Shown here: positions 3,521-56,638 of the stretch, piece by piece
How positions within the stretch are numbered: the first letter of the stretch is position 1
Layout of the letters: every line of letters starts with the position of its first letter
NCBI GenBank assembly: GCA_016795205.1
Contig: JAEUHZ010000024.1
Coordinates: 62,001-126,000 of the forward strand
Origin: Planctomycetota bacterium
GTDB taxonomy: Bacteria > Planctomycetota > UBA1135 > GCA-002686595
Reading direction: 5' to 3'
Length of the DNA stretch: 64,000 nt
Position numbers and translations under genes: made by a program
The notes under the pieces: model-generated
Seen by the model: only the letters and a program-made list of their open reading frames with translations
The model's database searches: none
What the model was told of the DNA's origin: nothing

Positions 3521-4495
3521 TCAGCTCCCGACCCGGACCTGAGAGAGCGCCACGAAGCGCTGTGCACGCTCCGCGGCCTTCGTCCCGGCGAACTTCTCGG
3601 CCAGGCCCTCGGCGCGCTTCACGTTGGCGGGCTCGAAGGGCTTCTTCTTCGCGACCGCCTCGACGAACGTATCCCAGGCCTTGGCTGCCTCCTTCTCGCG
3701 GGCGCGCTCGGGCTCCGCGAGCCGGGCCGCCTCGGCGGCCACCTTGGACTCCAGCTCGGGGACGCCCTTGGTCTCCTTCGCGAGTTTGCCGACGAGCTCG
3801 CTGGCCTCGACCGGGAACCCCTGATCGACGAGCCACTTGGCCCGTGCGATGCGGCGTTCGACGCGCGCCACGAACTCCGCCCGCGCGAGCTGCGCGTCGT
3901 CGCTCCCGAGCTTGTCGCACTCGAGGAGCGCGGCGGCGACCTCTCCCTTGTGGAACGACTTCCAGGCGCCGCGCAGCGGCGTCGGCGTGCCTTCGGGCGC
4001 GTCTTTGGCCTTCTTGACCTCGGCCGCGATCGCTTCCTCGAGCTTCTTCCCGAATCCGCCCGGGTGGCCCTGCATGAGGATCGTGCCGTCGACGCCCACG
4101 AGCGCCGTCTCCGGCAGCCCGTTGCCGACCGTCGGGAAGGGGCGCTCCTCGGTCCACAGCGCGCGCCCGCCCATCCACTTCATCTTCCAGGCGAAGGCCT
4201 CGTACTGGTCGCGGCTGGCGCCCTGGCACTCGACGAAGATCACCTGCAGCGCGTCACCGTACTGTTCTTGCAGCTTGAGGGCGCTCGGCACGGAGCCCCC
4301 GATGCAGCCGGGTCAACGCGTGCCCCAGAAGTCGACGAGCACGGGCTTCCCGCGCAGGTCCTCCAGGCTCTTCACGCCCATCGCGTTCACGGGCGGCTGG
4401 CGGAACGTGTAGGACGGCGTGTCGCCGACGCCGGCCGCTGCGCGCGGCGCGAGGGCCAAGGTGGCGACGGTGAGGAGTGCCAGGGAACGGAGCAT
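3521..4495 (-). CDS. Candidate selenoprotein: TlpA-like thioredoxin with Sec at the active site
   Basis: Reading through one in-frame TGA (4313-4315) joins two open halves into a 324-residue exported thioredoxin-fold protein. Residues 1-22 are a signal peptide ending AAAG. The redoxin core follows with LVDFWGTR, the TGA, then PGCIGG, so the motif reads U-P-G-C at 61-64 where TlpA/ResA proteins have C-x-x-C after a conserved FW. Homology to the redoxin fold continues without a break (VIFVECQ, the cis-Pro region near NGLPETALVGVDG, GHPGG). The C-terminal 140 residues are Lys/Glu/Ala-rich helix. A hairpin fitting the bacterial SECIS rules starts 12 bases after the TGA. Likely role: periplasmic thiol/selenol redox. 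Alternatives are a nonsense mutation or a base error at a TGC/TGT codon. The start follows a GAAAGG-type ribosome site. Confidence 0.75.
4279..4300 (-). other. Candidate bacterial SECIS hairpin
   Basis: On the minus strand, 13-34 bases after the in-frame TGA: a 3-bp GGG/CCC lower stem, a G-G mismatch, a 4-bp GCUC/GAGC upper stem and a six-base loop CGUGCC. The loop begins 21 bases after the TGA and has G as its second base. This fits the general rules I know for bacterial SECIS elements (loop 16-37 bases from UGA, upper stem of at least 4 bp, a G in the first two loop bases). The hairpin lies inside coding sequence, as required in bacteria. Confidence 0.5.
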
Positions 4496-4581: not shown

Positions 4582-6471
4582 TCAGCGACGGCGGAGCGCG
4601 ACGTCGAAGGGGACCGTGACGTCGCCGGCGCGCACGTCGATCTGGGCCTCTCCCGCGACCTCCAGGACCGGTCCCGCGACGGCGCGCCAGCGCCCCGGCG
4701 GGACGGCCAGGAACCGGAAGGAGCCGTCCGCGTCGATCGCGGTCGTGCGATGCACGCGACCGTCAGGCCACGCCAGGCCCAGTGTGGCGCCCCGCGGCCA
4801 GGCGTCGGGCGCGACCCCGAACGCGCGTCCGGCCACGACCGCGCCGGGAACGACGAGGTCGCGCTCGACGTCAGCGCTTCCGACCGCGTGCGTCCCAAGC
4901 TCCAGGGAGTCGGTGCGCTGCCCGGCGTTCGTCGTACTCAGCCGGACCCAGAACTCGACTGCGCCGGGCGCCAGGCGCAGATCGAAGGCCGCGTCCGGGC
5001 CGAGGTCGAGCTCGGAGTAGCCGCCCGAAGCGTCCTTCCAGGTCAGGCTCCCGCCCAGGGGCGGCGTGCTGCCGTCCACGAGCCGGAGGTGTCCGCGCCA
5101 GCGCGCGGACGAGGCCGGCTCGCCGAAGTCGACGCTGCGCGTTTCGCCTTCGGCCAGTGAACCGATCAGCCGCATGTTGCTCGTTTCCGAGGCCGGGCCG
5201 CGTCGGCCGGCGAGGTCCACGCTGACCCAGTACGCGCGCGGCTCGAGGCCGGCGACGTGGTAGTGCCCGCTGGCGTCGGTGAGGCCATGCACCTCGAGCC
5301 AGCCGGGGTCGTGATTGCATACGGCCCACACGGCGGCACCCTCGACCGGCACGCCACGAGCGTCCCAGACGCGGCCGGTGATCGCGGCCGAGCCCAGGAC
5401 GAGCACGAGCCGGCGCCCGCGCCGCTGCGCGTCGACGCGGACGAAGGTCTGGAGAGCGATCCCCGCGCCGACGTCCACGCCCAGCGAGTACGCGTCCGTC
5501 GCCAGCGGCCCGACCCGAAAGCGGCCGTCCGCGCCGATCGGCGCGCGCTCGAGGTCCTCGAATCCGACCGCGCCCAGTGCGGTCTCGGGCGCGGGCGGGA
5601 GCGGCCGCCAGTACCCGCGCCAGAACCAGAGCGTCCCGCCGGCGATCGGACGGTCGCCGCGCAGCACGAGGCCTCCCAGGAAGCCGGGCTCGCTCTGGCG
5701 CTGCTGCACGGCGATCTCGTCCTCGCCGAGCGCGACCTCCGCGGCCGGCGCGGCGAACCCGGAGCCCTCGCCGGCGGGCACGCCGCGTCCAGCGTCGGGG
5801 AGTTCCGGGCGCGTGAGCTCGGCGGCATGCTCGTCGGCACCCCGCGCCCCGCTGGGCGCGAGCGCGTGCTCCCGCGGGCCGGTCGGGGCTGGCGCGCCGC
5901 CGTCGACGGGCCAGAACCAAACCGCGAGTGCCAGCACGCCCGCGACGGCCACGCCGATCTTCGCGGCAGAGCTCATGACGAATCCCTTCGTGATCGTGGC
6001 GCCAACCCCGGCGGCGGTCGCGTCGACCGCACCGCGATCCAAGGCGACCGGCACCAGTGCGGCGATCCAGGCGCGGCCGTCGCGGCGGTCCAGTCGCGCG
6101 CGCAGCCGTGCCAGCCCGCGTTCGATCCGCGTGCGCACGGTCGAGGCGTTCGCGCCGGTGCGTCGCGCGATCTCGCCCGGTGCGAGCCCGTCGAGGTCGT
6201 GCCGGAGCAACGTCGAGCGATACGGCTCCTCCAGCTCCATGACGAGCTCCACGCTGCGCCGCGCGGCCTCGGCGCGCGCCACGACGTCGTCCTGTGAGGC
6301 CTCGGGGCGCGCCGCGGCGCGCTCGCGCTCGGCGCGGGAGGACTCGCCACGCGCACGGCGCCGCGCGAGGTTCAGGAGCACACGCGCGAGCCAGGCCCGC
6401 CGCGCGCGGCCGCCACGCTCGTGCGCACCCGGCACGGCCGCTCGCGCGCTGGGGACGTGCGCGACGAGCAA
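4582..6471 (-). CDS. ECF-type sigma factor fused to a membrane segment and carboxypeptidase-regulatory-like domain
   Basis: The intact frame is 629 codons if begun at a TTG (6471). Residues 1-160 are the rest of a sigma-70 family protein: the end of region 2, then region 4 with ELEEPYRSTLLRHDLDGL and helix-turn-helix APGEIARRTGANASTVRTRI. A hydrophobic segment (KIGVAVAGVLALAVWFW, near 170) is followed by a Pro/Ala/Glu linker and a C-terminal half rich in beta-sandwich repeats of the carboxypeptidase-regulatory/SpaA type (AITGRVWDARGVPVEGAAVW; TDASGHYHVAGLEPRAY). The layout suggests a membrane-tethered sigma factor with an outer sensing domain. The first part of region 2 lies upstream in two other frames (see the adjoining feature), so as assembled the sigma domain cannot be complete. 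Confidence 0.65.
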   Translation of the reverse strand: MLVAHVPSARAAVPGAHERGGRARRAWLARVLLNLARRRARGESSRAERERAAARPEASQDDVVARAEAARRSVELVMELEEPYRSTLLRHDLDGLAPGEIARRTGANASTVRTRIERGLARLRARLDRRDGRAWIAALVPVALDRGAVDATAAGVGATITKGFVMSSAAKIGVAVAGVLALAVWFWPVDGGAPAPTGPREHALAPSGARGADEHAAELTRPELPDAGRGVPAGEGSGFAAPAAEVALGEDEIAVQQRQSEPGFLGGLVLRGDRPIAGGTLWFWRGYWRPLPPAPETALGAVGFEDLERAPIGADGRFRVGPLATDAYSLGVDVGAGIALQTFVRVDAQRRGRRLVLVLGSAAITGRVWDARGVPVEGAAVWAVCNHDPGWLEVHGLTDASGHYHVAGLEPRAYWVSVDLAGRRGPASETSNMRLIGSLAEGETRSVDFGEPASSARWRGHLRLVDGSTPPLGGSLTWKDASGGYSELDLGPDAAFDLRLAPGAVEFWVRLSTTNAGQRTDSLELGTHAVGSADVERDLVVPGAVVAGRAFGVAPDAWPRGATLGLAWPDGRVHRTTAIDADGSFRFLAVPPGRWRAVAGPVLEVAGEAQIDVRAGDVTVPFDVALRRR

Positions 6472-38119: not shown

Positions 38120-38207
38120 GGAGGCGTGGCAGAGCGGCCGAATGCGGCGGTCTTGAAAACCGCTGTGCCGCAAGGCACCGGGGGTTCGAATCCCTCCGCC
38201 TCCGCCA
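38120..38207 (+). tRNA. tRNA-Ser (anticodon UGA)
   Basis: Class II tRNA of 88 bases. Acceptor GGAGGCG pairs with CGCCTCC, discriminator G and an encoded CCA follow (38205-38207). Anticodon stem GCGGT/ACCGC with loop CTTGAAA gives UGA. A long variable arm and GGTTCGAATCC in the T arm support Ser. Reads UCA-type codons. Confidence 0.95.
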
Positions 38208-40187: not shown

Positions 40188-40279
40188 GGAGAGATGGCTG
40201 AGTGGCCGATAGCGCCGGCTTGCTAAGCCGGTGTACTCCGCAAGGGGTACCGAGGGTTCGAATCCCTCTCTCTCCGCCA
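40188..40279 (+). tRNA. tRNA-Ser (anticodon GCU)
   Basis: Class II tRNA of 92 bases. Acceptor GGAGAGA pairs with TCTCTCC, discriminator G, encoded CCA (40277-40279). Anticodon stem CCGGC/GCCGG with loop TTGCTAA gives GCU. Long variable arm and GGTTCGAATCC T loop. Reads AGC/AGU. Confidence 0.95.

Positions 40280-56232: not shown

Positions 56233-56638
<406 letters not shown>

Follow-up and report, generated by a model that had tools for sequence, protein, structure and literature searches.

The in-frame UGA and the predicted protein

The question raised by this locus is whether a TGA codon in the middle of a thioredoxin-like reading frame of a planctomycete ends a gene or encodes selenocysteine (Sec). 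The locus lies in a 64,000-nucleotide stretch of a Planctomycetota bacterium (assembly GCA_016795205.1, contig JAEUHZ010000024.1, positions 62,001 to 126,000), hereafter called the window. On its minus strand, a frame opened by the ATG at 4495-4493 and closed by a TGA at 3523-3521 (3521..4495; 324 residues including U61) contains 60 codons 5' of the internal TGA and 263 codons 3' of it, and is otherwise free of stops. Judged from sequence, this is very likely the gene of a real, predicted selenoprotein: conservation of the UGA/Cys column, covariation in a selenocysteine insertion sequence (SECIS)-like hairpin, codon constraint, presence of the Sec machinery and purifying selection past the UGA together lead to this reading. 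With good confidence, we further propose that gene 4495-3521 encodes a Sec-containing, predicted-exported TlpA/ResA-like thioredoxin-fold oxidoreductase, the UGA being decoded by the tRNA-Sec and SelB of the same genome, aided by the hairpin.

The preliminary description of this locus had placed the TGA exactly at the first Cys of a CxxC motif (FWGTR-TGA-PGC), and direct reading bore this out. The plus-strand TCA at 4313..4315 is a minus-strand TGA (4315-4313) at codon 61 (FWGTR-U-PGCIGG), where TlpA/ResA-like proteins have the first Cys of CxxC, and the surrounding translation reads KPVLVDFWGTR-U-PGCIGGSVPSALKLQ. The second residue of the resulting UxxC is Cys64 (TGC, 4304..4306, minus strand). 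Third-position GC is 0.90 in the open stretch 5' of the UGA and 0.96 in the 80 codons 3' of it. Six further in-frame TGAs in the window passed the composition filter, none of them with an adjoining UxxC, CxxU or UxxS.

The structure model (predicted local distance difference test, pLDDT, 93) comprised a TlpA/ResA-like thioredoxin domain, at about residues 24-162 (4010..4426, minus strand), followed by an all-helical C-terminal domain of eight helices at residues 172-318 (3542..3982, minus strand). The predicted fold resembles that of ResA, CcmG and DsbE, the top structural matches being of TlpA/ResA/CcmG/DsbE type. Pro128 of the NGLPET motif (4112..4114, minus strand), invariant in 26 of 26 family members, is presumably the expected cis-Pro of thioredoxin folds. 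The helical domain found no confident match in the PDB (best Foldseek E value 0.3, with weak TPR matches). The 263 codons announced for the downstream part were recovered without another stop, but the redoxin fold, which had been thought to continue along them, ends near residue 165 in the model and the remainder is a separate domain. As for the signal peptide reported upstream, residues 1-22 (4430..4495, minus strand) do resemble one when judged by eye, in a region where the model has low confidence. The protein reached no Pfam or NCBIfam cut-off (Redoxin 18.8 versus 26.6 bits, ResA 20 versus 170, TlpA 17.7 versus 230) and ten further relatives matched no NCBIfam model at cut-off; having missed these family cut-offs, the window protein, which would act in the manner of these enzymes, is not classed as ResA or TlpA proper.

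Conservation of the UGA column

We searched the read-through protein against 154 genomes of the window's order and obtained a match at E <= 0.001 in 143 of them, ranging from close orthologues to distant thioredoxin relatives. The 90 loci examined form the upper part of this match list, weaker matches and some in between (e.g., G034, G132, G142) being left out, and eight further named loci were dropped as the same or near-identical contigs to loci already included. At the UGA column, 81 of the 90 loci have TGA, four have TGC (Cys) and five have another codon; these last five also have no second Cys (L099, L100, L101, L115 and L116) and are paralogues in which both active-site residues are gone and the rest of the fold is retained.

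The 81 UGA loci correspond to 79 genomes distributed in five families (f1 44, f7 18, f8 14, f3 2, f4 1), so that at least 79 of the 154 genomes of the order carry the family with UGA. The second Cys of UxxC was retained in all 81 loci, and none has a second internal TGA, TAA or TAG within the aligned span, in agreement with the earlier claim that a chance nonsense mutation at this very codon is unlikely. Among 26 diverse members, whose identity to the window protein goes down to 30%, the 12 invariant columns include those of U and of the second Cys. The ratio of nonsynonymous to synonymous substitution rates (dN/dS, Nei-Gojobori) past the UGA was 0.08-0.53 across 16 relative pairs, below 1 in every one of them. 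By this measure, the downstream half stays in frame under purifying selection.

A full-length Cys paralogue (L098, G000:C30:6972-7904; FWGPN-C-SGC) is present in the window's genome and falls within a clade of Cys forms. We also observed an additional TlpA sub-family (L117 and L118), in which the UGA lies in FFAYW-U-GPC and FWATW-U-GPC and whose genomes carry the main family too.

A similar picture emerged from a database of 5.8 billion proteins, in which scoring was limited to the 7998 candidates with most words in common. We found 103 matches among those scored, 91 fragments and 12 full-length proteins. The residue at the UGA column in the latter was Cys in ten cases, Ser in one and Thr in one; the closest Cys form among the scored candidates, P0003, is 67% identical to the window protein. 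The preliminary description had proposed to look for Cys or TGA at this column in relatives, and both were recovered in the genomes of the order, as was Cys in the database.

All 91 fragments align from residue 69 or later, and 85 of them exactly from Val69, whose GTG (4289..4291, minus strand) is the start codon of a 256-residue database stub; the open reading frame (ORF) 3521..4291 begins there. This start is the GUG of the SECIS loop described below, which would explain the systematic truncation in databases. These hold the family mostly as a truncated, unnamed protein.

The hairpin following the UGA

The upper stem-loop of the SECIS-like element lies at 4280..4299 on the minus strand, with arms at 4299-4293 and 4286-4280 and a loop (CGUGCC) at 4292-4287 whose first base is 21 nucleotides past the UGA. 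We aligned 77 ungapped sequences (72 distinct); the four other UGA loci, two with a one-codon deletion and two of the FWATW/FFAYW type, were excluded. In this alignment the 7-bp stem with its CGUGCC loop is formed in 85.1% of cells, and all seven pairs have changed on both sides. The covariation score of the stem was 0.439 against 0.153 +/- 0.018 in shuffles, none of 500 reaching it, and it fell to 0.07-0.18 when the stem was slid by one to three columns. The hairpin energy has a median of -11.2 kcal/mol, the weakest being -7.4 kcal/mol, and an uninterrupted stem of at least seven pairs was found at 55 of 81 sites versus 7.2% of the 2962 control windows taken from these genes.

Codon choice along the gene is unremarkable (median divergence from background 0.07 bits, 137 columns), in contrast with the extreme synonymous constraint at codons +5 (Gly GGG, 1.52 bits), +7 (Ser TCC, 1.41 bits, 61 of 64) and +8 (Val GTG, 1.36 bits, 79 of 80), the top three of the 137 columns for codon bias. 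Codon +6 (Gly, 1.43 bits) falls just below the 50% residue filter of this list. Nine sequences have GCG at codon +7, and in these the stem moves by three columns, with 7.0 of 7 pairs formed and a GGU loop exposed.

According to PMC13188914, a bacterial SECIS has a G within the first two loop positions, lies 16-37 nucleotides past the UGA and has a minimum free energy of -7.5 or lower; we take the covarying stem and the CGUGCC loop 21 nucleotides past the UGA to agree with this description. As far as the alignment can tell, the behaviour of the RNA past the UGA is that of a bacterial SECIS.

Selenocysteine machinery

The window's genome (4.6 Mb in 84 contigs, 90% complete) encodes a tRNA-Sec with a UCA anticodon (73.9 bits, over cut-off) as well as selA, selB and selD, each over cut-off, so that every component proposed for a search in the same genome was found. 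The selD product (L018, G000:C4:92350-93294) is a predicted selenoprotein too, its gene having an in-frame UGA in CAGUAAK. Of the 154 genomes in the order, 145 gave a selA match (139 over cut-off), as did 76 of the 79 genomes carrying the UGA form; being near-universal, selA is uninformative as to co-occurrence within the order.

The same genome carries a tRNA-Cys with a GCA anticodon (L002, G000:C57:10224-10316), 96 bases long with a long variable arm, which reaches 50.5 bits with the tRNA-Sec model, above cut-off. It resembles the selC* tRNA-Cys reported in PMC7609411 from four other phyla. We also observed a second redoxin-type gene whose active site contains an in-frame UGA (DFWGHW-U-PPCRAMY; L220 5787-6155, minus strand; G000:C19:28328-28705).

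Proposed activity and rival explanations

The scheme that we propose takes a predicted fold and infers export, reducing direction, reductant and substrate. The Sec61 selenolate would attack a disulfide or an oxidised thiol in the cell envelope, in a putative active site where the residue before Sec61 is R, N, H, K or Q in place of the usual Trp. Cys64 would then resolve the intermediate by forming a selenenylsulfide, which a DsbD-type membrane transporter could re-reduce, and the helical C-terminal domain may hold the substrate or a partner. One match to a DsbD-type transporter was found in the window's genome.

Several observations weigh against this reading or against parts of it. The folding energy of single sequences was no better than that of shuffles in four of four cases (z -0.57 to +0.50), RNAalifold by itself recovered three pairs, and for 35 of the 77 sequences the local minimum lay in a competing register, with UGC in the loop. 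Coarser counts were less extreme than the covariation score: 22 of 500 shuffles reached the number of pairs changed on both sides and 13 of 500 the number of pair types. The window's own stem contains one G-G mismatch, its longest uninterrupted stem being four pairs, and by the loose uninterrupted-stem measure stems of at least seven pairs also occur in two of the four Cys forms. A selA match was not found in three of the 79 UGA-form genomes (G033, G059 and G108, draft metagenome-assembled genomes 76-90% complete). Finally, no conserved partner gene was found at the loci, so that we can only infer substrate and direction.

The protein could also be a selenoprotein as described whose main activity is that of a peroxidase or sulfoxide reductase and not that of a disulfide reductase. 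The best Pfam matches, all below cut-off, are Redoxin, Thioredoxin_8 and AhpC-TSA, and chains of GPX7, GPX8 and GPX4 appear among the lower structural matches; on the other hand, the top matches are of TlpA/ResA/CcmG/DsbE type and a UxxC with a resolving Cys, found in 81 of 81 loci, is typical of thiol-disulfide oxidoreductases. We hold this activity to be unlikely, while giving it far more weight than any reading in which the UGA does not encode Sec. Were the UGA an ordinary stop, the gene would be broken, or the downstream 256-residue protein would be started separately at GTG 4291, a form in which 91 of the 103 database matches indeed appear. Against this stand the TGA at the same column in 79 genomes, the homologues with Cys at this column, the in-frame selection past the UGA and the modelled thioredoxin fold, which requires both halves, whereas the GTG is accounted for by the SECIS loop. 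A separate downstream gene, which the preliminary description had named as a possible refutation, is therefore not what we found, and an ordinary stop seems very improbable.

Decoding of the UGA as Cys or another standard residue, via a suppressor tRNA or an altered code, is hardly credible and the least probable of all. The tRNA-Cys of tRNA-Sec-like shape might have favoured it, but its anticodon is GCA; moreover, UGA terminates the same gene, a second internal UGA is absent from all 81 relatives, and tRNA-Sec(UCA), SelA and SelB are present. We rejected a nonsense mutation, a separate downstream gene and a general reassignment of UGA because of the conserved UGA/Cys column, the in-frame selection and the use of UGA as terminal stop. 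The preferred reading therefore remains that of a predicted U-x-x-C oxidoreductase, as the preliminary description had suggested, supported by the UGA/Cys column, the Sec machinery and the in-frame downstream half.

Distribution in the phylum and Sec/Cys pairs

A 26-row profile of the family, run at E <= 1e-15 on 392 genomes sampled from the phylum, matched 164 of them, and many among the matches listed have exactly one internal TGA. The family extends to other planctomycete families; in one of these, f30, a UGA copy is followed by a Cys copy on the same strand in seven of the 11 loci examined (L202, L204, L206-L210), with a third, more diverged family member matched nearby in six of these seven. 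The other four f30 loci contain two or three UGA copies (L212, L213, L214) or a UGA copy beside a copy in which no CxxC was found (L203). A different yet clear hairpin follows the UGA in the f30 pairs, e.g., GAAGGC-GUU-GCCUUC. Two or three UGA copies lie side by side at each of the loci L211-L214. At L205 (G310:C34), a UGA/Cys pair of the closest sub-family is divergently transcribed, providing a natural pair for studying selenium-dependent regulation.

Of the 134 rows placed in a tree, 103 carry U, 23 carry C and 8 neither; at least ten changes of the Cys label are required on it, and Cys forms branch beside or inside Sec clades (P0003, L113 and the P0097 group). With a midpoint root, this topology suggests repeated replacement of Sec by Cys, the inferred direction depending on the root. 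Sec-to-Cys replacement is called rare in bacteria in PMC13188914, a 2026 review, and the Cys forms nested in Sec clades bear on that statement.

A broader proposal, which we advance tentatively and hold to be somewhat doubtful, is that of a phylum-wide, selenium-based envelope redox system of Planctomycetota. This two-domain TlpA-like family would be ancestrally Sec-containing in the window's order, with repeated replacement of Sec by Cys and often a Sec and a Cys copy side by side, functioning as a relay or as a selenium-responsive switch, and it would have been hidden by gene callers starting inside the SECIS loop. The family offers natural Sec/Cys pairs, a SECIS stem whose register changes with a single codon and a specific correction to the annotation.

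Genomic context and other features of the window

A clear partner gene was not found; tblastn located the window gene's neighbours solely in a same-genus genome, the flanks being mostly 0.3-1.5 kb. Some ORF clusters recur loosely in 22 longer loci: one upstream cluster in seven of them (YjeF_N in five of five members scanned), a cluster with the window's protein kinase in four and a cluster with the window's FG-GAP gene in four. Just upstream of the selenoprotein gene, the ORF at 4582-6471 (minus strand) combines a sigma-70 region 4 with a carboxypeptidase-regulatory-like domain; judged by position, the same-genus locus L051 lacks it between the neighbours. Elsewhere, the window contains a class A RNase P RNA (56236-56635, plus strand) and two tRNA genes (38120-38204 and 40188-40276, plus strand), whose scores with the tRNA-Sec model, 42-43 bits, stay under its cut-off of 47.

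Comparison with known systems

The literature search found no paper on the window family. Planctomycetes are not named in the text of PMC13188914, nor in the portions available of the main texts of PMC1088965, PMC2398784, PMC5029168 and PMC12013277. By contrast, PMC4807772 reports Sec machinery or genes in two planctomycete isolates and two cultured species, with several selenoprotein candidates, and the window family may overlap with these.

Compared with ResA, TlpA and CcmG (DsbE), the window family has the same fold, CxxC position and GLP loop. It differs from them by Sec in place of the first Cys, by the absence of Trp directly before Sec in 79 of 81 loci, by an additional residue separating the active site from the Pro of helix 1 (in the three alignments shown) and by the added helical C-terminal domain.

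Among selenoproteins, Table 1 of PMC13188914 lists UxxC proteins of a thiol-disulfide isomerase-like type (cd02966) and of the Redoxin family (PF08534). Judged by their description, they share with the window family, which may already be included in either entry, a TlpA/redoxin-type thioredoxin fold and Sec at the first position of CxxC. The same table includes a UGC-containing TlpA disulfide reductase family (NCBIfam NF041054, WAxxUGC_long), likewise a TlpA/ResA-like selenoprotein, but with the motif U-G-C instead of U-x-x-C; NF041054 weakly matched two of the 26 members (best E value 0.0073). NF041382 (VPGUxxT thioredoxin-like (seleno)protein, type 1) matched seven of the 26 members at E <= 0.01 (best 6.5e-10) and did not match the window protein at E <= 0.1. 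In the two members detailed (L047, 142-311; P0099, 162-328), the match falls in the C-terminal helical domain, which thus looks, by sequence comparison, to be shared with the NF041382 family; it reached 21 and 29 bits in this pair against a cut-off of 350, the active-site part was unmatched in both, and the motif differs. TlpA-like UxxC selenoproteins are therefore already known as a kind, to which the window family adds an unusual prevalence and an informative SECIS.
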